From contig NZ_CP104578.1 of NCBI RefSeq assembly GCF_036826855.1, forward strand, positions 6,359,501-6,423,500: DNA of 64,000 bases. Reading direction: 5' to 3'. Position numbers and translations under genes: made by a program. Source of the stretch: Streptomyces sp. SJL17-4. GTDB taxonomy: Bacteria > Actinomycetota > Actinomycetes > Streptomycetales > Streptomycetaceae. Of this stretch, positions 9,437 to 61,367 are shown one piece after another (positions within the stretch are counted from its first letter, which is position 1; each line of letters opens with the position of its first letter). The notes under the pieces were generated by a model. The model saw only the letters and a list, made by a program, of their open reading frames with translations. It searched no databases and was not told the origin of the DNA.

Positions 9437-9610
9437 TCAGTTGTGGCCGAAGCGCTTCTGGCGGCCCTTGCGGGCGACGTCGCTCGGCAGCACCTGAGAC
9501 GCGCGCTGCGACGCCTCGGACTCCATCGCCGACTGCTGCGCCTGCTGGGCGCCGCGCTCGGCCGGGGACTGCTGCTTCTGACCGCGGTTCTGGTTGCGGT
9601 TCTTGGCCAT
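9437..9610 (-). CDS. small basic, Gln-rich conserved protein (57 residues)
   Basis: An ATG at 9610 sits six bases after GAGGAGG, a near-ideal ribosome site, and opens 57 codons ending in GRQKRFGHN and TGA. The composition is rich in Gln, Arg, Lys and Asn (MAKNRNQNRGQKQQ), so it is soluble and probably disordered. From memory, similar short proteins are widespread in Streptomyces (the DUF6243 type), with unknown function. It is convergent with dnaE. Confidence 0.75.
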   Translation of the reverse strand: MAKNRNQNRGQKQQSPAERGAQQAQQSAMESEASQRASQVLPSDVARKGRQKRFGHN

Positions 9611-9835
9611 GGGGATGCCTCCTCAAAGGGACCTAGGGGCCAGGGCCGCTGTCAGACTCACATACGGCATGAACCGCCGCATGTTGGATCATTACGGAGC
9701 GTTAGGCCCCCGGGAACGTGACATCCGCCACGCCGATGATCCAGTTCCGACCGTCGAGCCCCCGCCCTTCGGGCAGACTCGAAGGAAATCCGAAGCAACT
9801 TCCGATCCCGAGGTTCCCGAAAGAGGGTGGAACAC

Positions 9836-11212
9836 GTGGACCGCTGCGTCGTCCTGGTGGATGCCGGCTACCTGCTGGGAGCTGCCGCCAGTCTTCTCGC
9901 CGGGGAACCGGCCCGCTCCAGGATCACCGTCGATCACGCCGGGCTCATCCAGCAGCTGCGCCAGCGCGCCGAGGCCGAGACCGCGCTGCCCCTCCTGCGG
10001 ATCTACTGGTTCGACGGCGCGCCCGACCGGGTGCCCCAGCCGGAGCACCGCAGACTGCGGGTGATGCCCCGCGTCACGGTCCGGCTGGGCGCCTTGACGC
10101 GGAGCGACGGACGCTGGGCCCAGAAGGGCGTCGACGCGGCGATGCACACCGAGCTGACCGAGCTCGCCAGGAACCGGGCCTGCTCGGACATCGTGCTCGT
10201 CACCGGTGACGGAGACCTGCTGCCCGGACTGATGTCGGCCAAGGAACACGGCGTCGCCGTCCACCTCTGGGCCGTCCAGGCCGCCGACGGCGACTACAAC
10301 CAGTCCGAGGACCTCGTCGCCGAGGCCGACGAACGGCGGGTCCTCGACCGGGCCTGGATCACCCGGGCCGTCCGCGCCAAGGACCTCACCGGGATCTGCT
10401 CGCCACCGCCCGCCCCGCGCCCCGAGATCGCCGCCATCCTCTCCGCGCCGCTGCCCGAGGCGGCCCTCGCCGCCTCCGCCGAACGGGCCGCGGAGGCGGC
10501 GGCGTCCGCGGCCGGGGAGATCCCCACCGCCGACGGCAACGGCCACGGCGGCAACGGGCACGTCCACGGCGCCGACGGTCACGTCCACCACGGCAACGGT
10601 CACGCGGGCGCCAACGGTCACCTCCGCGAGGACGACCACGACCGCGGCCACACGACCGGTGTCCCCGCCCCGGCCCCCGGCAAGGGCGTCCCCACCCCCA
10701 AGGACCTGGCGGGACTGCGCGCCCCCGGCGCCACCCCCGCCTCCCCGGGCGCGCCCGCGCCCCAGGGCACCAGCGCGCTCCGCTGGTCCTCCGACCGGGG
10801 CTGGGTCGAGCGCCCCGCCGCCCCCCTCGGCGAACCGGCCGAGACCGCCTCCCTGCCCACCCTCGCCGCCCTCACCAGCGCGGAGCAGCGCTGGGCGGAC
10901 CGCGAGGAGGACATCACCACCGTCGGCGGAGACCCGTTCGAGGTCGGCCAGGTGTTCGCCCGGCGATGGATGGAACGGCTCCCCGAGCAGAGCCACGTCC
11001 AGAAGCTGTCCACCCTCTACCCCCGCATCCCGCACCGCATCGACGGCGAACTCCTCCGCTACGCCGCCCGATTCGGGCTGCTCGCCCACAAGGACGACCA
11101 GATCGACGAGCACGACCGTTATGCGATCCGGGCGGGATTCTGGCGCGAGATCGACGTCCGGGCCGCCGCCGAACACGCCCCCGCGCCCGGAGCGGGCCCG
11201 GCGACCCCGTAG
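9836..11212 (+). CDS. NYN-domain protein (predicted nuclease fold) with His-rich linker
   Basis: This protein has 458 residues from GTG 9836, eight bases after AGAGGG; GTG 9827 gives three more residues but overlaps that site. The N-terminal 190 residues form a NYN/LabA-type PIN-like domain with acidic motifs VVLVDAGYLLG, KGVDAAMHTEL and VLVTGDGDLLPGL, the expected metal-binding aspartates. A Pro/Ala-rich middle contains a Gly-Asn-His repeat (about residues 235-275, NGHGGNGHVHG and similar) that could bind metal. A conserved C-terminal domain (FEVGQVFARRWMERL to the end) may bind RNA. The RNA or DNA substrate is unknown. Confidence 0.8.
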   Translation: MDRCVVLVDAGYLLGAAASLLAGEPARSRITVDHAGLIQQLRQRAEAETALPLLRIYWFDGAPDRVPQPEHRRLRVMPRVTVRLGALTRSDGRWAQKGVDAAMHTELTELARNRACSDIVLVTGDGDLLPGLMSAKEHGVAVHLWAVQAADGDYNQSEDLVAEADERRVLDRAWITRAVRAKDLTGICSPPPAPRPEIAAILSAPLPEAALAASAERAAEAAASAAGEIPTADGNGHGGNGHVHGADGHVHHGNGHAGANGHLREDDHDRGHTTGVPAPAPGKGVPTPKDLAGLRAPGATPASPGAPAPQGTSALRWSSDRGWVERPAAPLGEPAETASLPTLAALTSAEQRWADREEDITTVGGDPFEVGQVFARRWMERLPEQSHVQKLSTLYPRIPHRIDGELLRYAARFGLLAHKDDQIDEHDRYAIRAGFWREIDVRAAAEHAPAPGAGPATP

Positions 11213-11223
11213 GCTCTCCCCCC

Positions 11224-12204
11224 GTGAGTACGGTGTGCGTGGTGCGGGATCTGGTCAAGACGTACCCCGCCACGCGCGGCAGGCGCGGGACGCCCGCGAC
11301 ACCCGAGGTGCGAGCCACCGACGGGATCAGCCTCGACGTGCGCGGCGGCGAGATCTTCGGGCTGCTCGGCCCCAACGGCGCGGGCAAGTCGACCCTCGTC
11401 CGCCAGCTCACCGGGCTCATGCGCCCCGACTCAGGCAGCGTCCAACTCCTCGGCCACGACCTCGTGCGCCACCCCGAGCGGGCGTCCCGGCTCCTCGCGT
11501 ACCTCGGCCAGGAGTCCACCGCCCTCGACGAGCTGACCGTCGCCCTCGCCGCCGAGACCACCGGGCGGCTGCGCGGCCTCACCGCCCGCGACGCGCGCGC
11601 CGAGCGCGACGCCGTCCTGGACGAGCTCGGCCTCGGTACGCTCGCCTCCCGGCCGCTCAGGAAGCTCTCCGGCGGCCAGCGTCGGCTCGCCTGCTTCGCC
11701 GCCGCGCTCGTCGGCGAGCGCCCCGTCCTCGTCCTCGACGAGCCCACCACGGGCATGGACCCCGTCGCCCGCCGCGCCGTCTGGGCGGCCGTCGACCGGC
11801 GGCGTGCCGAACACGGCGCCACCGTGCTGCTCGTCACCCACAACGTGATCGAGGCCGAGACCGTCCTCGACCGGGTCGCCGTCCTCGAACACGGCCGGGT
11901 CATCGCCTGTGACACGCCCGCCGGACTCAAGGAACGCGTCGCGGGCGAGGTCCGCGTCGAGCTGGTCTGGCGCGACTCCGCCCCGCTCCACCTGCCCGAG
12001 GTCGCCGAGCTGCGCGGGCTCGCCCAGGAGACGGGCCGGCGCTGGATCCTCCGCCTCGCCCCCGACGCGGCCCGCGCGGCCGTCGCCACCGTCACCGGCG
12101 GAGCCGCGTTCGCCGCGCTCGACGACTTCACCCTGGCCACGCCCAGCCTGGAGGACGTGTATCTGGCGCTGGGCGGCGCGACCGAGGGACTGGTGAAGGC
12201 ATGA
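11224..12204 (+). CDS. ABC transporter ATP-binding protein (ABC-2 type exporter)
   Basis: This 326-residue protein starts at GTG 11224. Walker A is LLGPNGAGKST, the signature is LSGGQRRLACFAA, Walker B is PVLVLDEPTTG and the switch His is in LLVTHNVIEAE. A C-terminal regulatory extension follows residue 240. It has the DrrA/NatA-like architecture of drug or lipid exporters. Its stop overlaps the start of a 23-codon mini-ORF that leads into the permease gene, so the pair is probably one transporter. The substrate is unknown. Confidence 0.9.
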   Translation: MSTVCVVRDLVKTYPATRGRRGTPATPEVRATDGISLDVRGGEIFGLLGPNGAGKSTLVRQLTGLMRPDSGSVQLLGHDLVRHPERASRLLAYLGQESTALDELTVALAAETTGRLRGLTARDARAERDAVLDELGLGTLASRPLRKLSGGQRRLACFAAALVGERPVLVLDEPTTGMDPVARRAVWAAVDRRRAEHGATVLLVTHNVIEAETVLDRVAVLEHGRVIACDTPAGLKERVAGEVRVELVWRDSAPLHLPEVAELRGLAQETGRRWILRLAPDAARAAVATVTGGAAFAALDDFTLATPSLEDVYLALGGATEGLVKA

Positions 12205-12272
12205 CCCTCCCCGTACCGCCCGTGCCCGTACCGCCCGTACCGCATATCACCCCCAGGAGCTGTACGCAGTGA
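12201..12272 (+). CDS. 23-residue Pro/Val-rich ORF coupled to both transporter genes
   Basis: ATG 12201 overlaps the ATPase stop (ATGA), and the TGA at 12270-12272 overlaps the permease GTG at 12269 (GTGA). The peptide would be MTLPVPPVPVPPVPHITPRS plus CTQ. A repeated CCCGTACCGCC-type DNA unit creates the VPP runs. If translated, it would carry ribosomes across the gap and link expression of the two subunits. It could also be chance, since the gap lacks stops in this frame only because of the repeat. No homologue is recalled. Confidence 0.35.
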   Translation: MTLPVPPVPVPPVPHITPRSCTQ

Positions 12273-13099
12273 GCACCGTGCCCACCGAGGTCCTGCGGAC
12301 CGGCGCGCCGTCCGTCCGGCCACGAGCCGACGACGGCGAGGCCGCCGCACCCCTCGCCCCGCGCGCCCGGCTGCTGCCGGCCCTGGCCGCCGTCTACCGC
12401 GCGCAGCTCTCCCGCGCCCGGGTCGCCCGCATCCCGCTGCTCTTCGTGGCCACCTTCCAGTCCATCGGGATCATGGTCCTGATGCGCGGGGTCGTCGACG
12501 GGGGCTCCGAGGCGCGCGCCGTCGTGGCCGGCTCCACCGTCCTCGTCGTCGCCTTCGTCGCGCTCAACCTGCTCGCCCAGTACTTCGGGCAGCTGCGGGC
12601 CACCGGCGGCCTCGACCACTACGCCACCCTGCCCGTGCCGCCCGCCGCCGTCGTGCTCGGCGCCGCGGGCGCGTACGCCTCCTTCACCGTGCCCGGCACC
12701 GCCGTCACCGCCGTCGCCGGCTCCGTGCTCTTCGGACTGCCGCTCGACCACCTCTGGATCCTCGCCGCCGTCGTCCCGCTCGCCGGAGCCGCGCTCGCCG
12801 GCCTCGGCGCGGCCCTCGGGCTCCTCGCGCCCCGGCAGGAACTGGCCACCCTCCTCGGCCAGCTCGGCATGTCCGCGGCGCTGCTCCTCGGCGTGCTCCC
12901 GGCGGAGCGGCTGCCGGAGCCCATCGGCTGGGCCCGGGACCTGCTCCCGTCGACGTACGGCGTGGAGGCCCTGGCCCGCACCTTCGACCGCCGTCCCGAC
13001 TGGGCGGCCGTCGCCCTCGACCTCGCCGTGTGCGGGGTGGTCGGCGTGGTCTCCCTGGCCGTCGCCACCTGGGCGTACCGGCGGGCCGCCGTCCGCTGA
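12269..13099 (+). CDS. ABC-2 type transporter permease
   Basis: This 276-residue protein starts at GTG 12269, behind CAGGAGCTG. After a polar 35-residue leader it has about six membrane helices (from IPLLFVATFQSIGIMVLM to VVGVVSLAVATWAYRR). The ABC-2 permease pattern is clear, with the long central helices GAAGAYASFTVPGTAVTAV and [18 protein letters not shown]. It forms the channel for the adjacent ATPase. The cargo cannot be told from sequence. Confidence 0.86.
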   Translation: MSTVPTEVLRTGAPSVRPRADDGEAAAPLAPRARLLPALAAVYRAQLSRARVARIPLLFVATFQSIGIMVLMRGVVDGGSEARAVVAGSTVLVVAFVALNLLAQYFGQLRATGGLDHYATLPVPPAAVVLGAAGAYASFTVPGTAVTAVAGSVLFGLPLDHLWILAAVVPLAGAALAGLGAALGLLAPRQELATLLGQLGMSAALLLGVLPAERLPEPIGWARDLLPSTYGVEALARTFDRRPDWAAVALDLAVCGVVGVVSLAVATWAYRRAAVR

Positions 13100-52844: not shown

Positions 52845-54297
52845 CCCCAAGGGCTTCCTGACCACCGGTCGCGAGGTCGCCAAGACCCGCCCCGTGGGCG
52901 AGCGCGTCAGGGACTGGAACGAGGTCTACGTCCCCGGCTCCCTGCTGCCGATCATCAGCAAGCAGGCCGGCCGCTGCATGGACTGCGGCATCCCGTTCTG
53001 CCACAACGGCTGTCCCCTCGGGAACCTGATCCCCGAGTGGAACGACTACGCCTACCGCGAGGACTGGTCGGCGGCGCAGGAGCGCCTGCACGCCACCAAC
53101 AACTTCCCGGAGTTCACCGGCCGCCTGTGCCCGGCTCCGTGCGAGTCGGCGTGCGTGCTCGGCATCAACCAGCCGGCCGTCACCATCAAGAACGTCGAAG
53201 TCTCCATCATCGACAAGGCGTGGGACGCCAACGACGTCAAGCCGCAGGCGCCCGACCGCCTCTCCGGCAAGACCGTCGCCGTCATCGGCTCGGGCCCGGC
53301 GGGTCTCGCCGCCGCCCAGCAGCTGACCCGGGCCGGCCACACCGTCGCCGTCTACGAGCGCGCGGACCGCATCGGTGGACTCCTCCGGTACGGCATCCCC
53401 GAGTTCAAGATGGAGAAGCGCCACATCAACCGCCGCATCGAGCAGATGCGCGCGGAAGGCACCAAGTTCCGCACGGGCGTCGAGATCGGCCGCGACATGC
53501 CGGCGACGGCGCTCCGCAACCGGTACGACGCGGTCGTCATCGCCGCCGGCGCCACCACCGCCCGTGACCTGCCCGTCCCGGGCCGCGAGCTGGCAGGCAT
53601 CCACCAGGCGATGGAGTACCTGCCGCTGGCGAACAAGGTCGTCGAGGGTGACTTCGTCGCCCCGCCGATCACCGCCGAGGGCAAGCACGTCGTCGTCATC
53701 GGCGGCGGCGACACCGGCGCCGACTGCGTCGGTACGGCCCACCGCCAGGGCGCGGCCTCGGTCACGCAGCTGGAGATCATGCCCCGACCGGGCGAGGAGC
53801 GGAACCCGGGTCAGCCCTGGCCGACCTTCCCCATGCTGTACAAGGTCACCTCCGCGCACGAGGAGGGCGGCGAGCGGGTCTACTCCGTCTCCACCACCCA
53901 CTTCGAGGGCGACGAGGACGGCAACGTCCAGTTCCTCCACCTCGTCGAGGTCGAGTTCGTCGAGGGCAAGCTGACCCAGAAGCCGGGCACGGAGCGCAGG
54001 ATCCCCGCCCAGCTGGTCACGCTCGCGATGGGCTTCACCGGCACGGACGTGGAGAACGGTCTGGTCGCCCAGTTTGGTCTGGACCTCGACGAGCGGGGTA
54101 ACATCGCCCGAGACGCGGACTTCGCCACCAATGTCGATGGCGTGTACGTCGCCGGCGACGCGGGTCGCGGCCAGTCCCTCATCGTGTGGGCCATCGCCGA
54201 GGGCCGCTCGGCCGCCCGTGGCGTGGACCGCTACCTGACCGGCGCCAGCTCCCTGCCAGCCCCGATCCGCCCGACGGACCGTTCGCTGATGGTCTGA
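52837..54297 (+). CDS. gltD: glutamate synthase small subunit
   Basis: This 486-residue protein starts at ATG 52837, overlapping gltB. It passes electrons from NADPH through FAD and two 4Fe-4S clusters to GltB. Cluster cysteines are in [19 protein letters not shown] and [13 protein letters not shown]. The FAD site is [17 protein letters not shown], the NADPH site [17 protein letters not shown], and the late FAD motif is [18 protein letters not shown]. Complete and of normal length. Confidence 0.97.
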
Positions 54298-54444: not shown

Positions 54445-54900
54445 TCAGCCGACCGGGCCCGGGAAGATCCAGGTGATCAGGGAGGCGGCCGAGACGGCGA
54501 GGACGCCGACGAGGCCCATCCAGCGGGCGATGCCGGTCGTGCGGACGACGGACTTGGCCCGTTTCTTCTCGTACGTCAGCAGGTACTTCGCGTCGGTGAG
54601 CACTTTCTGGCCCGGCCGCTCGTGCACGGCCGTGACCAGCATCCAGGAGGCCGCGAGGAGGAGCAGGAACCCTCCGGCGAGCAGGCCGATCACCCACCAC
54701 CTCGGGCCGGTGGTCATCTTGCTCAGGTTCTCCTGCCCCTTGAGCACGAAGATCACGGTGAGCAGCCCGGTGAGTGTGGTGAGGAAGTTCCGGTAGCCCT
54801 CGGCCTGCTGGAGCGCCGCCCGCAGTTGCTCGGGTGGGGCCGCCATCGCCCGTACCCGCAGGCCTGCCTTCCACAGCTCGTCCTCGGTGAAGTCACTCAC
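54445..54900 (-). CDS. small three-helix membrane protein of the caspase/HSP90 operon
   Basis: This 151-residue protein starts at GTG 54900, overlapping the preceding stop (GTGA). A soluble N-terminal 36 residues (TEDELWKAGLRVRAM, then a helix) precede three membrane segments (about 38-55, 68-91 and 127-146). A basic stretch, KKRAKSVVR, lies between helices two and three. No homologue is recognised. As the last gene of a module with a caspase/HSP90 protein, it could be a membrane-damaging effector or a membrane anchor; this is inference. Confidence 0.7.
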   Translation of the reverse strand: MSDFTEDELWKAGLRVRAMAAPPEQLRAALQQAEGYRNFLTTLTGLLTVIFVLKGQENLSKMTTGPRWWVIGLLAGGFLLLLAASWMLVTAVHERPGQKVLTDAKYLLTYEKKRAKSVVRTTGIARWMGLVGVLAVSAASLITWIFPGPVG

Positions 54901-55226
54901 AGGGAGAGTCCCCCTGGGGGAAGGGCGATGTAGAACGAGGCTCCGCAGCCGTCCGGGACCCCGTCGGGCCGGTCCAGGTGCCAGGTCGTGCACTCGCACA
55001 TGGCGTACCTCGGCTCACCGGAGGCCACGAGGTTCCTCAGGGGCTTGGAGGGGCCCTTGGCGACGAACTGGACCCCCGTGATGACCCTCGTGGTCACGCA
55101 CTGGCACTGGGGGCACTCGCCGACGGCCTGAACGCCGTCGCCGTCGCTCCGGACCTCCCAGAGGAAGGTGGTGAGGGGCTGGGTGAGCGGGAAGGGCCGG
55201 CGGTTCCAGGTGGTGGTGGAGCTCAT
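54897..55226 (-). CDS. Cys-rich small protein (109 residues), possible zinc binder
   Basis: ATG 55226 overlaps the stop of the caspase/HSP90 gene, and its own stop overlaps the membrane-protein GTG. Cysteines at about 38, 41, 43, 77, 79 and 94 (ECPQCQCV, MCECTTW, DGCGASF) suggest a zinc-ribbon-like fold. No family is recognised. Its fixed place between the large protein and the membrane protein suggests it links them or is a sensor piece; function unknown. Confidence 0.68.
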   Translation of the reverse strand: MSSTTTWNRRPFPLTQPLTTFLWEVRSDGDGVQAVGECPQCQCVTTRVITGVQFVAKGPSKPLRNLVASGEPRYAMCECTTWHLDRPDGVPDGCGASFYIALPPGGLSL

Positions 55227-58200
55227 GACTGCGGTCCTCCGGGGGCGGGAACGACGAGCGAGAACAGTCGGGCGTAGCGGCGGAGGATGTCACGGACGTC
55301 GTCCTCGGACTGCTCCGTCTCCTCGGCACAGAGAACGACGTGCTCGTCGGTGACGGTTCCCGTCACGGCGGGTGCACGGCCGGTCAACTGCTCGGTGAGG
55401 ACGATGACATCACGCCAGCCGGGCACGATCTCCCGTTCTTCGTCCTGCGGTTCGGGCGTGATGACCTTGAGGCCGAGGCTCGTGAAGGGTGCGTACCGGT
55501 CGTACGTCTTCCCGAGCGTCCAGCCGAACCGGCCTGCCACGAGGACGAGTTCGAGTGCGCCGAGAACTCCGGGGCCGAGCAGGCTGGCATCGAACGCGGC
55601 GAGGTCGAAGTCGTTCGGCTCCAAGCCCGCGAGGGCGTCGGTGATCGTGCCGGGGACCGGGGGACCGCCGAGGCAGCGGTAGGTGCCGAGGATGTCGGCG
55701 GCGTGGCGCAGGGTGCCGCCGCGGCGGGTCATGGCGAGTGAGAGGAGGTCCTGGACCTCCAGGCACTCCCGGAAGGACTGCACGTGCTCGGTGGTGTGGA
55801 GCAGGTGGACCACCTCGGCGTACACGGGTGTCAGGGAGCGGGCCTCCTCCGGGACGTCCGGGAGCCGGAGCGGAAGCAGGGGTCCGTCCAGCCTGGCCAG
55901 CGCTACTTCGGCAACCGCGTCACCCAGGGTGGTGCGGTCGGCGGCCGCGAACTTCAGGAAGAGGGGGACGCCGAGGTCGCAGGCGTCGAACCCTCGTTGG
56001 TCCACGTCCTGCGACCATCTGCTGAGCCCGAATTCCAGCAGGCTGACGAGGGCGGGCGGCAGCTGCTTGAACTGGTCCACCAGTGTGTCGACGGGATCTG
56101 CCAGGCACCCGCACGCGTCCAGGAGGACGAGCTCCCGGCGCAGTTCCTCCAGGGAGGGGCGGCGGGGGGATTGGTATGCCTGGAGGAGCAGGCGCCAACT
56201 GGGGTGCGTGGCCCGGGTTCCGGGCTCCGTGCGAGGCGAGTTGTCGGCTGCCTGCACTGTCCACCCTGCCGGGATCCATTCCTGGCACTCCTCGGGCACC
56301 TCCGGAGCGGACACACCGGTGGCCGACGCGATGTGGGCGACCTTCCGGGCCACCTCGCCGAGCGGCTGACTCAGGCTGAGACTGCGCTCCATGAGCTGCG
56401 CCATGGTCAGACGTCCGGCAGGGAGCCATGGGTACCTGCCGTCGATGTCGCGCGACATCAGCCTCTGCTCGAAGGCGGTGAGTGCGGGATGGTTGAGAGT
56501 CTCCTCGCGCACGGCTTCGGTGTGGCGGAGGCCCAGCGGCCTCAGGGCGGTGATCCGCTCGGCGAGCCGTCGCCGCTGTTCGGGCAGCTGCGCGTACATC
56601 AGCAGATCGATGGGATGTACGTCGCGCCGTCGGCCCTCGTTCCAGGAACCGGGGGACGCGCGGAGGAACTCGGCCTCGGCCTCCACGAATTTGACCGTCA
56701 GATCGACGGAGGCCAGGGCATCCGGATCCGGGATCTCGAAGCCGAGGCGCAGGAGCTCGTTCAGATCGTCCAGGAGGCGGGACGGAGCCACGCCATGGTG
56801 GGCGGCCACGGCCAGGAGAGGGACGTGAGCGGCTGGGCGTTCGTTGGGTGCAGCCACCCGCGCCGCGGCTTCGTAGGCCTCACAGAGATCCGCCATCTCT
56901 TCGGTGGGCGTGCCCGCCGCACGCAGATCCGCGATGCTCCGCGCGGCCGGGACCCGGGCGCCCGCGATCGCGTACCGCCGCAAGGCCTGGACGCTCCTGG
57001 CCAGTGGGATGTCCGCGCGCAGAGCGACCTTCACGGGCAGCGACCACCCGCCGTCGAAGAGGCGGGAGGACGTCAGGAGCGCGTCCAGGCCGATCGGCAC
57101 GGGATAGCGGTCGGGTGCGAACGGAGGCTCACCGGGGGCCGACGCCCCCAACGCTGTCATACGCCACCTTCTGAGGACCTTGGCCTCGGCCCGCTCGTCG
57201 TGTGGCACCACCTCGTGGCCCGTCCACTGCCGCAGCTGGCTGAAGTCCATCCCCAGAACGCCCGTGCGGCGCAGCGGCAGGCGGGTGGTGGGAAACTGGA
57301 AATCGACGACTTCCGAGTCCACGAGGCCGGTCACCAGGGGCGACAGATGGTCGAAGAGCTCGACGACGAGCTGCGGTTCGTCGTCCGCGAGCTCCCACAG
57401 CCATGGCAGCAGGACCTCGTCGAGTTCCCTCGCCGCGACCGGGACCGCGCCGAGCAGCTCCTCCATCACCTTCTTCGTGTCGTAGAAGACCAGTGAGTTC
57501 CGGTTGACGCTCGGCTCCGGCCGGTGTCTCTCCCGGAGGTTGAACACGTACCCGTGGACCTTGGGAGCGTCCTCCACGACGATGCCGTCGAGCAGCAGCT
57601 GTCCGGGGCCCTGGACGATCCAGCTGTCCTCGCTCGCCGCCGTGGCGGCCTTCCCGTGCCAGTTCGCGGTGCGGTCCGAGGGGGCGTGCAGTACGCCCGG
57701 CTCCCAGAACTCCTGGTCGATCAGATTGCCGTCCCGACCTCGCTCCAGCGCCGTCACCCGGAATTCGCTCACCCACAGCAGGCGCCGCAGGGTGGCCACC
57801 ACCGACGGCGGGCCCTCCTCGCCCTCTTCCTGGTTCAGGTACAGCCGCACCACCGTGCCCCCTTGCCCCGGTGGGCCGTCCGTCGGGCCGATCTGGAGCA
57901 GACCGGAGCCCGACTGGACGGTGGCCCGGAGCGGCGAGGCCGGGCGGGACGGGTAGCCGTACTCGTCGGTCGCCTCGGTGTGGACGGTGACCTCGTCGGC
58001 GAGCATGAAGTAGCTGAACACGCCGATGCCGAAACGGCTGTTGAGAGGGATCGGCGGCATACCGACCCGCCGCCAGTTGCGCCGCTCCTGCACGTAGTCG
58101 GGGTCCTGCGCGTACCGCTTGCCCGCGCGGGCGAACATGGAGGTGAGTTTCTCCCGGCTCATGCCGGAGCCCTCGTCGCGGCACTCGATGTACGGACGGT

Positions 58201-60373
58201 CCCCGTCGTACGCCTGGAGGAAGTGGATCTCGGGCTGCCGGTCGGGTCCGTTGAACCCCTTCCGCTTGGTGCCGTACGTGACACGCTGCTGCCGGTGCCG
58301 GCACGCGTCCAGGGCGTTCTGGTACAGCTCCCGCACGGCGAGCGTCCGGTCGCCGTACAGCTGGGTGCCCATGAGCAGGGGGCGGATCTCGTCCTCGGCG
58401 AGGCGAAAGCGCTCCAGGGGCGTGGTGTAACTCTGATCGGCCGGGTTCAGCGACGCGGTGGTCACCTTGTGGGGAACGCCCCGGAGCAGGTCCGGCGCGG
58501 TGTGCCCGGTGGATTGCCAACCTTGGTGACGAGCCCGCACGGAGGCGTCGGCGGTCGCCGCCAGTTCCTCCAGCGCGGCGTGCAGTGCGGGATGCGGGCA
58601 GTTCAGGCGGAGCGCGTAGCTCGTTGCCCCGTTCTTCGTGCCCGCCTCCCAGTCGCAATCCGCGAGCGCGGACACCACGGCGGCCGGGGTGAGGGGCTTG
58701 TGGGCGCCCAGGTGGTCCACGAGCACGCTGGACATGCGGCGCGGATCAACGGCGAGCAGCGCCGCCAGCCACAGAAGGTAGGCGAGCTCGCCGTCACGCC
58801 ACATGTTGCCGGGGACGGGGCGTTCCCGGCGGCTCCACTTGGGGTTGGCTGAGGCGTTGATGCGCGGGCTGGAGCCCGGAGGGACCGTCATGTGGGGCAG
58901 AACCCGGCGCACGTGTTTGTCCACCTCGGAGCGCTGCGCGTCGGACATGACGTCGGCGCCCGCCGCGACGGCCCGCACCACCCTGTCGAGGAGGCCGTTC
59001 ACCGACGGGTAGGCGTCGGAGCGGTCCCACAGCAGGTCCCAGTCGGCGATGAAGCGGTGGCGAAGCCAGTGGTCGGCGGCGGTGGCGGCGTCGATCATCT
59101 CCCGCTGCCGCAGTGACTCGGCCGCGCGGTGCACTCCTGAGTGGGCCTGGCAGAGGTCGGCCGCCTCGTCGCACACGTGCTGTTCGTGCCCTTCGACGGG
59201 CTTCCTGCCCCGGCCGTCCTTCTCCAGCTTGTCCAGCCGGTCCGGCCGCAGTTCCGCCAGCTGGCTCAGCGCGATGGCGACGACGCCCTCGTGCATCAGG
59301 GGAGCGGCGAGCAGCGCCGCGGTCTCGGCGGGGGAGAGGAGGTCGTCCTCGCCGAGTTGGGCGTCGTCGATGAGCCGGCCGAGGCGGTTCACGACGCGGA
59401 TCGGGTAGTCCGGATCGCTCCAGGGGGTGGCGTCCGTGCCGAGGCGGCTCTTCGCGACCTCGCGCGCCAGGTCCGCGAGCTCGTCCTGGACCCGCTTGTG
59501 TGTCTCGGCCCCGTGCGAGGTGTGGTTCCAGAGGACGGATCTGGTGATCGCTTCGGCCCAGCGCTCGGTCTGCCGGCTGCCGTCGCAGAGGACCAGCCGG
59601 TCTGCGAGGCCTTTCGCGCACTCGACCTCGACAGTCGGTGAGGGGTCCGCCTGGCGGGATGCGAGTCGCTCCACCTGTCCCTCGATATAGGAGTGGACCT
59701 CCTTGAGGGTTTTCGGGGGGCTGGTGCGCGACAGTGCCTGGGCGAGGGCGATTCCGAAGTAACTGCCCTTCTGGGGGTCGGCATAGGCCGGCTGTCCGCG
59801 TCCGCTCGCGTGCAGCCAGGCGACGTCGCGGTAGACGGAACTCGCCAACGGCGTCTCGTGGAAGTCGGAGGGCGAGCGCGAGTCGTCGGTACGGCAGGTG
59901 TCGAGGCAGACCACGACCGTGACGCCTTCGGGCACGGACCCGAGGAGGGCCTCGGGACTGACTTCCAGGATCGTGTTCGAGATCAGGGACCCGTTGGCGC
60001 GGGCGCGGGCCTCGGAGGAGAGCAGGTACTCGCGCTCGCCGACGGTCACGCCGTGGCAGGAGAAGTAGAGGAAGGCCGTGTCCCCCGCCTTGCAGGAGTC
60101 GAGGAAGGCCTCCACGGCCACCAGGATCGCGCCGGGGTTCGGATCCCGCCGTTCCAGGTCGGCGTGACCGGGGTGCAGGGCTTCGACCTCGTAGTCGGAC
60201 TCGATGAGGGCGGTGCGGACCATCTCGATGTCGCGGTCGACGAAGTCGAGCGGCTTGAAGCGCCGGGAGAGGACCTCGTCCCGTTCCAGGTGCGGGGTCC
60301 TCCCCACGCCGATGAGCAGCGCCCGCCGCCCGCCGGTGCCCGCCTCTTCGGCCGCGTCCGTCGTCGAGCTCAC
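55223..60373 (-). CDS. caspase-like peptidase fused to HSP90-type ATPase (about 1,716 residues)
   Basis: GTG 60373 follows GGGGG at five bases; ATG 60415 would add 14 residues. Residues 1-250 form a caspase-fold peptidase with His in LYFSCHGVTVGE (about 107) and Cys in VVVCLDTCRTDD (about 160). A helical region follows. At about 660-880 is a GHKL/HSP90 ATPase: LAVRELYQNALDACRHR (N box), ECRDEGSGMSREKL (G1), NSRFGIGVFSYFMLAD (G2) and GGTVVRLYL. The last 800 residues are helical and unassigned. By analogy with known actinobacterial caspase/HSP90 conflict proteins, it may sense damage or infection, switch with ATP and activate proteolysis. It heads a three-gene overlapping operon. Confidence 0.85.
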   Translation of the reverse strand: MSSTTDAAEEAGTGGRRALLIGVGRTPHLERDEVLSRRFKPLDFVDRDIEMVRTALIESDYEVEALHPGHADLERRDPNPGAILVAVEAFLDSCKAGDTAFLYFSCHGVTVGEREYLLSSEARARANGSLISNTILEVSPEALLGSVPEGVTVVVCLDTCRTDDSRSPSDFHETPLASSVYRDVAWLHASGRGQPAYADPQKGSYFGIALAQALSRTSPPKTLKEVHSYIEGQVERLASRQADPSPTVEVECAKGLADRLVLCDGSRQTERWAEAITRSVLWNHTSHGAETHKRVQDELADLAREVAKSRLGTDATPWSDPDYPIRVVNRLGRLIDDAQLGEDDLLSPAETAALLAAPLMHEGVVAIALSQLAELRPDRLDKLEKDGRGRKPVEGHEQHVCDEAADLCQAHSGVHRAAESLRQREMIDAATAADHWLRHRFIADWDLLWDRSDAYPSVNGLLDRVVRAVAAGADVMSDAQRSEVDKHVRRVLPHMTVPPGSSPRINASANPKWSRRERPVPGNMWRDGELAYLLWLAALLAVDPRRMSSVLVDHLGAHKPLTPAAVVSALADCDWEAGTKNGATSYALRLNCPHPALHAALEELAATADASVRARHQGWQSTGHTAPDLLRGVPHKVTTASLNPADQSYTTPLERFRLAEDEIRPLLMGTQLYGDRTLAVRELYQNALDACRHRQQRVTYGTKRKGFNGPDRQPEIHFLQAYDGDRPYIECRDEGSGMSREKLTSMFARAGKRYAQDPDYVQERRNWRRVGMPPIPLNSRFGIGVFSYFMLADEVTVHTEATDEYGYPSRPASPLRATVQSGSGLLQIGPTDGPPGQGGTVVRLYLNQEEGEEGPPSVVATLRRLLWVSEFRVTALERGRDGNLIDQEFWEPGVLHAPSDRTANWHGKAATAASEDSWIVQGPGQLLLDGIVVEDAPKVHGYVFNLRERHRPEPSVNRNSLVFYDTKKVMEELLGAVPVAARELDEVLLPWLWELADDEPQLVVELFDHLSPLVTGLVDSEVVDFQFPTTRLPLRRTGVLGMDFSQLRQWTGHEVVPHDERAEAKVLRRWRMTALGASAPGEPPFAPDRYPVPIGLDALLTSSRLFDGGWSLPVKVALRADIPLARSVQALRRYAIAGARVPAARSIADLRAAGTPTEEMADLCEAYEAAARVAAPNERPAAHVPLLAVAAHHGVAPSRLLDDLNELLRLGFEIPDPDALASVDLTVKFVEAEAEFLRASPGSWNEGRRRDVHPIDLLMYAQLPEQRRRLAERITALRPLGLRHTEAVREETLNHPALTAFEQRLMSRDIDGRYPWLPAGRLTMAQLMERSLSLSQPLGEVARKVAHIASATGVSAPEVPEECQEWIPAGWTVQAADNSPRTEPGTRATHPSWRLLLQAYQSPRRPSLEELRRELVLLDACGCLADPVDTLVDQFKQLPPALVSLLEFGLSRWSQDVDQRGFDACDLGVPLFLKFAAADRTTLGDAVAEVALARLDGPLLPLRLPDVPEEARSLTPVYAEVVHLLHTTEHVQSFRECLEVQDLLSLAMTRRGGTLRHAADILGTYRCLGGPPVPGTITDALAGLEPNDFDLAAFDASLLGPGVLGALELVLVAGRFGWTLGKTYDRYAPFTSLGLKVITPEPQDEEREIVPGWRDVIVLTEQLTGRAPAVTGTVTDEHVVLCAEETEQSEDDVRDILRRYARLFSLVVPAPGGPQS

Positions 60374-60461
60374 CCGTACCCCCAACTCCCTTGTGCGGGA
60401 CCCCTGTACGCCCATGATTCCAGAACGTCACCGGCTGGGGACCCGCACCGCGGGACGGTCC

Positions 60462-61367
60462 TCACCGGGGTACGGTTCTCAGCCAGGCCGCCGCCCCGTC
60501 GAGCGCCGCGTCCGCCTCCGGCAGGAGGCCCGTGCCGCCGAGGAAGCCGTGGAACACGCCCGTGTGCAGGTGGACCTCTGCCCGGACGCCGGCGGCGGAG
60601 AGGCGGCGGGCGTAGGCGAGGCCCTCGTCGCGCAGGGGGTCGCAGTCGGCGAGGACGAGGAGGGCCGGGGGCAGACCGGTGAGGTCGGGGGCCAGGGCGG
60701 GGGAGGCCGCGGCCGGGTCGCCGTCCGGGCCCACGTACTGCCGCCAGTACCAGCGCATGTGGGCCGTCGTGTGGAAGTAGCCCTCCGCGAAGTCGTGGGC
60801 CGACCGTCCCTCCAGTCTGTGGTCCAGCGCCGGGTAGACCAGGAGCTGGCCGGTCAGTGGCGGCCCACCGCCATCACGGGCGCGCAGGGCCGCCGCCGCG
60901 GCCAGGTTCCCGCCGCTGCTGTCGCCCGCCAGGACCAGCGGGCGCCCCGGATATCGGTCGGCCGCCCACCCCAGGGCCGTACACACGTCGTCCTCGGCCG
61001 CCGGGAAGCGGTGCTCGGGTGCGCGCCGGTAGTCGACGGAGACGACGGTCGCGCCGGTACGGGAGGCCAGCGCGCGGCACGTACGGTCATGGGTGTCCAG
61101 ATCGCACAGGACCCAGCCGCCGCCATGGGCGAAGACGACGACCAGGTCCTCGCGACCTTCGTAGAGGCGGACGGGAACGCCGTTCGCCGAGGTCTCCCGT
61201 GCCGGTGGGAGCTCGCCCAGGTGCGCCCTGGCCGCCGCCCGCAGGGCCTCCGCGCCCGCCTCCGGGCGCGGGAAGCCCGCCGACATCGCGTCGCAGAGGG
61301 CGCGGGCCGCCGGGGTGAGCGGGTCGGGGGGCAGCGCGTCGGGGCGCGGCGCGTCGGTCGTCGTCAT
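60462..61367 (-). CDS. alpha/beta hydrolase, hormone-sensitive-lipase family
   Basis: This 301-residue protein starts at ATG 61367, whose ATGA overlaps the ancestral stop of the SDR gene. The oxyanion motif HGGGWVLCDL and the nucleophile elbow LAGDSSGGNLAA identify the HSL/acetyl-hydrolase type. The acid is probably in LLVLADCDPLRDEG and the His in LHTGVFHGFLG. It likely hydrolyses a small ester made or used by the LLM/SDR operon. Confidence 0.92.
   Translation of the reverse strand: MTTTDAPRPDALPPDPLTPAARALCDAMSAGFPRPEAGAEALRAAARAHLGELPPARETSANGVPVRLYEGREDLVVVFAHGGGWVLCDLDTHDRTCRALASRTGATVVSVDYRRAPEHRFPAAEDDVCTALGWAADRYPGRPLVLAGDSSGGNLAAAAALRARDGGGPPLTGQLLVYPALDHRLEGRSAHDFAEGYFHTTAHMRWYWRQYVGPDGDPAAASPALAPDLTGLPPALLVLADCDPLRDEGLAYARRLSAAGVRAEVHLHTGVFHGFLGGTGLLPEADAALDGAAAWLRTVPR

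Follow-up and report, generated by a model that had tools for sequence, protein, structure and literature searches.

The closest described relatives of the locus treated here, a three-gene operon in a window of 64,000 nt of Streptomyces sp. SJL17-4 (NZ_CP104578.1), are proteins that Pfam defines by the families iHD-CE (PF24401), HD-CE (PF24391) and wHTH-HSP90_Na-assoc (PF24410). The window is the whole stretch of DNA that was analysed, and all coordinates of the operon are positions in it. These proteins hold the same domains as P0001, the large product of the operon, in one chain together with an HSP90-type ATPase; we take the three families to stem from work on conflict systems. Of the 467 relatives of residues 1-870 of P0001, the 120 listed carry both iHD-CE and a caspase. 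Compared with the proteins defined by Pfam, the window adds two small genes, the products of which, P0002 and P0003, match no family over cut-off. Judged by its domains, P0001 is a protein of known kind, as Pfam holds families for iHD-CE and its winged helix-turn-helix (wHTH), and the P0002–P0003 module inside the operon is possibly new. This pair recurs beside proteases of several kinds, and it is read here as a candidate executor.

In the available part of its description, the two-gene EACC1–caspase system resembles the operon in its N-terminal caspase, its membrane partner, its actinobacterial occurrence and its conflict setting (Kaur et al. 2020, PMC7159879). It appears there with EACC1 as the 5' gene and with one transmembrane helix, whereas P0003 is encoded by the 3' gene and has at least two hydrophobic segments (PMC7159879). 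The Pfam scan gives no EACC1 match in the trio, the NCBIfam model caspase_w_EACC1 reaches 37.1 bits against a cut-off of 140, and the gene 5' of P0001 matches Abhydrolase_3. Craspase, in the accessible part of its description, likewise combines a caspase-like protease, the TPR-CHAT protein Csx29, with a dedicated substrate protein, Csx30, and CHAT proteases also adjoin the pair; the operon differs in that its partner genes encode a zinc-ribbon-like protein and a membrane protein. Within Streptomyces, Pepco-linked loci have the same domain order as P0001 (caspase, iHD-CE, HSP90-type ATPase), but they contain a small upstream family of eight members, f11, instead of P0002 and P0003; both members that were scanned (L055 and L067) are Pepco. 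The f11 loci are L053, L054, L055, L056, L064, L067, L081 and L089. The VMAP ternary system with a caspase is marked by MoxR AAA+, vWA and VMAP genes and by an alpha/beta-hydrolase neighbour. An alpha/beta-hydrolase gene does lie upstream of P0001, but its family has only four members in the loci compared. Bacterial gasdermins are likewise membrane executors encoded beside caspase-like proteases. Their pore domain is rich in beta structure, and such a domain is not found in the AlphaFold model of the small P0003, which has four helices and no strands (mean predicted local distance difference test, pLDDT, 82.5; range over five models 64.8-82.5).

Organization of the operon

Three overlapping genes on the minus strand are located between gltD, which ends at 54297, and an alpha/beta-hydrolase gene (60462-61367):

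55223-60373, minus strand: P0001, 1,716 amino acids, GTG start; caspase, iHD-CE, HSP90-type ATPase, long middle region and wHTH
54897-55226, minus strand: P0002, zinc-ribbon-like and Cys-rich, 109 amino acids (CPxC ... CxCxxxH ... GCG)
54445-54900, minus strand: P0003, small membrane protein, 151 amino acids (QAEGYRNFL ... LKGQ), likely start GTG at 54900
55223-55226, minus strand: ATGA overlap of the P0001 stop and the P0002 start; a -4 overlap in 19 of 29 trio loci
54897-54900, minus strand: GTGA overlap of the P0002 stop and the P0003 start; a -4 overlap in 27 of 29 trio loci

This layout confirms three claims of an initial annotation made from the sequence: a large protein of 1,716 residues, which holds with the GTG start (an in-frame ATG upstream at 60415 would give 1,730 amino acids), a Cys-rich second protein of 109 residues, and coupling of the three genes, both junctions being overlaps of four bases.

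Association of the small pair with proteases

The search of 392 Streptomyces genomes for P0003 used a profile, A2, built from 26 members located beside caspase, CHAT and neither, and the neighbourhoods of all 80 matches were sorted by protease. The caspase, CHAT, P0002 and P0003 profiles were built by iteration on the same loci, and the sequences are related, so that the counts are not independent events. A caspase gene adjoins 34 of the 80 matches; P0002 is present at each of these loci, and the caspase is encoded in one open reading frame with iHD-CE and HSP90 throughout. For 28 other matches a CHAT protease is encoded within 6 kb; P0002 is recognized by profile or pattern in 27 of these loci, and the 28th (L146) has a CPRC frame at the place expected for P0002. 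The CHAT gene is within 1.41 kb of P0003 in 26 of the 28 cases, on the opposite strand in 18 and on the same strand in 10, and its catalytic-type His and Cys are invariant (28/28). Some of these CHAT proteases carry TPR repeats. The six matches with neither P0002 nor a protease are weaker (E 2.5e-11 to 2.8e-7), and most are partial. At one locus (L116, 4,895-15,917), a single pair is flanked on each side by a large caspase–iHD–HSP90 gene.

A second collection of 48 loci, partly overlapping the first since it includes some genomes of the 392-genome set, contains 35 caspase and 10 CHAT loci by profile. The total of 45 rises to 46 with L233 (Hamadaea), where a caspase was then found in frame; P0002 is present in 47 loci, the exception being L246. 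Outside Streptomyces, the pair occurs with CHAT in Kibdelosporangium, in Paractinoplanes and in a record titled Rhodococcus rhodnii, and with a caspase in Streptacidiphilus, Hamadaea and Virgisporangium. In Virgisporangium (L248:6938-11469) the adjoining gene has an apoptosome-like build, caspase–NTPase–WD40. Its caspase scores 18.9 bits (Pfam cut-off 21.4) and E 1.8e-11 with the profile built from the loci; the NTPase matches are weak, the propeller is of WD40 type, and no HSP90 match is found in this large protein.

Two controls bear on the association. A CHAT gene is present in 77 of 101 Streptomyces genomes, yet none of the 31 retrieved neighbourhoods that lack P0003 contains one; chance proximity of a CHAT gene is about 0.5% per locus, assuming three genes per genome and with relatedness left uncorrected. 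The other control concerns the iHD-CE loci (39 matches, the 39th of which, L066, was left out of the scoring): the pair is found in 14 of 23 with a caspase and in 0 of 15 without a recognized caspase, or in 0 of 13 after removal of L069 and L070, which are cut by contig ends (Fisher 2.5e-4). The genome of L069, G102, has a pair on another contig (L109), and L069 may really belong to the trio class. Because caspase-less iHD-CE loci are devoid of the pair while caspase-bearing ones mostly have it, the pair follows the protease and not the HSP90 part. The iHD-CE–HSP90 proteins without a recognized caspase (L071-L073, L075-L080, L083, L084, L087 and L090) have varying neighbours, for example GH127 in L072 and a subtilase in L078; in L077 an HtpG-like gene (L077:7479-9395, 638 amino acids) is located immediately upstream.

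The neighbourhood survey of the 109- and 151-residue families, which the initial annotation had proposed, thus reveals a strong conservation of partners. The trio that it had regarded as the unit did not hold: judged by its neighbourhoods, the P0002–P0003 pair forms an independent module that combines with several proteases.

A fusion points in the same direction for the two small proteins. In L153, one open reading frame (311-319 amino acids, according to the start) unites P0002-like and P0003-like parts, the former recognized from the pattern of its Cys residues and the latter by profile. Its neighbours (L153:982-5179) encode an EAD1–trypsin protein of 363 amino acids and an EAD1–ThsA-macro protein of 589 amino acids, in the second of which PADLOC detects ThsA. 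EAD1 is a conflict-system domain in the available part of its description (PMC7159879). This single case argues that P0002 and P0003 act together and that their setting is one of conflict; the conflict role suggested from the sequence thereby stands as far as EAD1 neighbours at this one locus go, and abortive infection as a hypothesis. The locus is also adjoined by a ricin-lectin protein of 1,484 amino acids with a weak Tox-REase-5 match.

The divergence of the proteins is correlated as well. In 29 caspase trios the distance correlations amount to 0.87 (large protein–P0002), 0.95 (large protein–P0003) and 0.85 (P0002–P0003), and in 26 CHAT loci to 0.64, 0.59 and 0.89, respectively; common ancestry contributes to these values, which were reached by 0 of 2000 shuffles in each set. 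In a midpoint-rooted tree of P0003 (74 rows, 127 columns; several forks unresolved), the 32 caspase-linked rows fall into one clade of 37 (100/97), the other five being no-protease loci, and 26 CHAT-linked rows fall into two clades. Since caspase- and CHAT-linked P0003 proteins form separate clades, the type of protease has been switched at least once.

Domains of the large protein

P0001 contains the following elements:

59648-60322, minus strand: caspase (Peptidase_C14), residues 18-242; Pfam E 1.8e-12, 47.9 bits against a cut-off of 21.4
60053-60055, minus strand: codon of H107, catalytic-type residue of the caspase, in SCHG (residues 105-108)
59894-59896, minus strand: codon of C160, catalytic-type residue of the caspase, in DTC (residues 158-160)
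58439-59560, minus strand: iHD-CE (PF24401), residues 272-645; E 2.3e-67, 228 bits against a cut-off of 27
57827-58372, minus strand: HSP90-type ATPase region, residues 668-849, from HtpG models, motifs and solved HSP90s
55274-55426, minus strand: C-terminal wHTH (wHTH-HSP90_Na-assoc, PF24410), residues 1650-1700; E 6.8e-13, 49.2 bits against a cut-off of 23

A caspase with both catalytic residues and a GHKL ATPase had been recognized in the initial annotation, and both are corroborated. H107 and C160, which we take to be the catalytic residues of the caspase, have their His and Cys counterparts in all 43 caspase-bearing iHD+HSP90 relatives. The ATPase has ELYQNALDA at residues 682-690, DEGSG at 733-737 and FGIG at 781-784, presumably the HSP90 motifs, and its E, N and D are kept in 58 of 58 relatives. 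Two HtpG models match with E 1.3e-10 and 3.1e-11, both under the full-length cut-offs of these models, and the solved relatives found by sequence are HSP90s (TRAP1, HtpG, Hsp82 and endoplasmin; best E 8e-6). The Pfam HATPase models give no match over cut-off (15.9 against 25 bits), and the Pfam scan finds none in the long middle region. Downstream of the ATPase domain, the Arg of an SV[DN]R motif is present in 55 of 55 relatives. We take it to be the middle-domain Arg of HSP90; a forced global alignment does not pair it with the HtpG residue. Elsewhere in the SJL17-4 genome there is a second caspase gene (C1:1315302-1316063, L001), with an open frame of 325 amino acids.

The two small proteins

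The elements CPxC, CxC, His and GCG of P0002 are each kept in at least 90% of 66 relatives, down to 17% identity. By this conservation, the Cys and His residues form the pattern of a zinc site. Its predicted structure (pLDDT 85) is small and predominantly of beta type, with a low-confidence stretch at about residues 51-70.

P0003 had been described from the sequence as a three-helix membrane protein. Its membrane type is upheld, and the number of helices is not: there are two strongly hydrophobic segments, within residues 65-94 and 123-151, a conserved segment near 38-56 is not strongly so, and the AlphaFold model has four helices. A33, R37, G55, A91 and W144 are identical in all 77 aligned relatives. 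Residues 91-120 contain eight K/R against three D/E. The positive-inside rule governs the topology of membrane proteins, and under this rule the charge excess would place the 91-120 loop inside the cell and the C-terminus outside. Long members of the family have a C-terminal extension with conserved Cys, which P0003 of the window lacks.

For P0002 and P0003 of the window, Pfam, PADLOC, NCBIfam and PHROGs give no family that is over cut-off or convincing. Their relatives have scattered weak Pfam matches, among those listed in the case of P0003, including one weak holin match (E 0.0014, one member); among the 25 listed Pfam families that 77 P0003 members match, SLATT does not appear. Solved relatives of either protein by sequence are not found below E 0.08. 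P0003 and P0001 each also served as query in a large protein search, in which only about 8,000 candidates were scored; that with P0003 yields 296 relatives, and nearly all named ones among the 120 listed are hypothetical or uncharacterized proteins.

Distribution of the operon

The families are patchily distributed. iHD-CE has 39 matches, which are spread over 28 of 150 Streptomyces genomes; P0002 is found in 18 of 392 (three at E 1e-6 or weaker) and P0003, by profile, in 68 of 392. Across the phylum, P0003 is present in 10 of 396 genomes, SJL17-4 included, four of them at E 4e-5 or weaker. At the gltD site, 15 loci, among them that of SJL17-4, hold the trio or its remains (family f3); distant trios sit elsewhere (L057, L059, L060, L065, L074, L082, L085, L086 and L088). 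The gltD neighbourhoods of ten trio-less relatives were checked for an empty site. L199, with a gltD that is 97% identical, has the same hydrolase, SDR and LLM flanks and 137 bp in place of the trio; the remaining nine carry other genes there.

Partial loss is seen in several loci. In L093 the pair remains at the gltD site with 219 bp to the hydrolase gene, the large gene being gone, and the same combination of a retained pair and a missing large gene is found in L097. L061 has the large gene split into pieces, and in L091, from an assembly that is 55% complete, such pieces lie in several frames. The operon is accessory. It was predicted to be an accessory insert between core genes, and two findings had been set beforehand as speaking against a conflict or defence system: a syntenic core gene with a housekeeping phenotype in all Streptomyces, and a lack of partner conservation across genomes. 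The patchy distribution and the empty site with the same flanks agree with an insert and go against the first of these, and the neighbourhood survey goes against the second.

Possible roles of the pair

The occurrence of the pair next to other caspase-like proteases in other actinobacteria hints at a shared self-destruct or immune executor. The variable side of these loci (HSP90/iHD/wHTH, TPR or NTPase–WD40) looks like a sensor and the protease like the shared switch, while the pair is constant, and for this reason the pair is read as the executor. On the sequence evidence, we estimate at roughly one in two the probability that the pair is what the protease acts on, or acts through, in what would be an accessory proteolytic operon of immunity or self-destruction. 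P0001 could then be a single-chain sensor-protease, in which the HSP90-type ATPase, iHD-CE and wHTH together keep the N-terminal caspase off. It could be imagined that a stress or invader signal alters the ATPase cycle and thereby releases the caspase. P0002 may sit on P0003 or connect it with the protease; if one of these two small proteins is cut, P0003 would be switched, leading to membrane damage or hyphal arrest. P0002 and P0003 would be a common executor with interchangeable drivers: CHAT proteases, some with TPR, caspase–NTPase–WD40 and caspase–iHD–HSP90 proteins. Within this scheme, we infer the activation by the ATPase, the identity of the cleaved protein, the membrane damage and a role in phage defence. 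The loci L093 and L097, which keep the pair in the absence of the large gene, suggest that the pair alone is tolerated; this fits an executor awaiting activation and does not decide against a sensor.

Several observations weigh against the executor role. The association says that pair and protease work together, and it does not give the direction. Structure comparison does not support a pore. PADLOC 2.0, run on the trio, finds only the caspase profile in P0001, at E 0.016. Two of the CHAT links are poor: in L129 the gene is 4.6 kb away, and L149 has a weak P0003 and a 193-amino-acid CHAT piece 3.1 kb downstream. In the second collection, L216 (Actinacidiphila) and L220 have neither caspase nor CHAT, and in the first, 12 of the 80 P0003 matches belong to pairs for which neither protease was found. 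Among these 12 no-protease pairs, L091 and L109 adjoin remains of the large protein, L093, L097 and L104 fall within the caspase clade of the P0003 tree and L148 within a CHAT clade, and L153 is the fusion described above. The region of L154 is poorly read by the gene caller, a simple GC-position method tuned to high GC, which may miss such low-GC neighbours. L105, L125 and L126 group on a single branch and have an EF-G-like gene nearby, and L132 has another neighbour in common with them. The EF-G-like GTPase gene beside these three pairs (around 9,500-13,000; about 670 amino acids) was identified by a Pfam scan in L105 and by like N-termini in the others.

The same constancy across proteases that favours an executor would also suit a sensor, a membrane protein that, with its zinc partner, signals damage to the envelope or the entry of a phage and turns on the protease, which then cuts other proteins. 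Such a role is proposed for EACC1 beside caspases in the available part of the work of Kaur et al. (2020, PMC7159879), and the Cys-containing extension of the long P0003 members would be placed outside the cell by the charge distribution. P0003 of the window is devoid of this extension, however, and the large proteins already bring differing putative sensors (HSP90/iHD/wHTH, TPR, WD40), so that we regard a sensing pair as rather unlikely. The tight overlap of the two small genes (27 of 29), their correlated divergence (0.85 and 0.89) and the existence of pairs without a protease would be expected of a toxin–antitoxin couple gated by proteolysis, in which P0003 is the membrane toxin and P0002 the antitoxin destroyed by caspase or CHAT. 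This explanation overlaps with that of an executor; as a separate one it has a low probability, as the fusion in L153 would tie the toxin to its antitoxin and no toxin or antitoxin family is prominent among the Pfam matches listed for the P0002 and P0003 relatives. The least probable of the alternatives is a lineage-specific system of developmental cell death or protein quality in mycelial growth, with no role against phages. The HSP90-type ATPase, the restriction mostly to Streptomyces and relatives and the persistence of 15 loci at the gltBD site are in line with it; the patchy occurrence, the empty site, the partial losses and the EAD1/ThsA neighbours in one locus are not.

An executor role of the pair can be taken a step further, and more tentatively, as the idea is somewhat less probable than the role itself. 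P0002 and P0003 might be an undescribed two-protein membrane death executor, common to caspase–iHD–HSP90, TPR–CHAT and caspase–NTPase–WD40 proteins and perhaps to trypsins. With its interchangeable upstream sensors, it would then be a prokaryotic, non-gasdermin counterpart of the step from caspase to membrane rupture in animals. A single-chain HSP90 ATPase–caspase such as P0001 would constitute a chaperone-gated protease switch. Caspases and CHAT proteases are common in bacteria, but to our knowledge only very few have a known target, gasdermins and Csx30 being examples. For many orphan members of both kinds, the pair is a concrete candidate for such a target.

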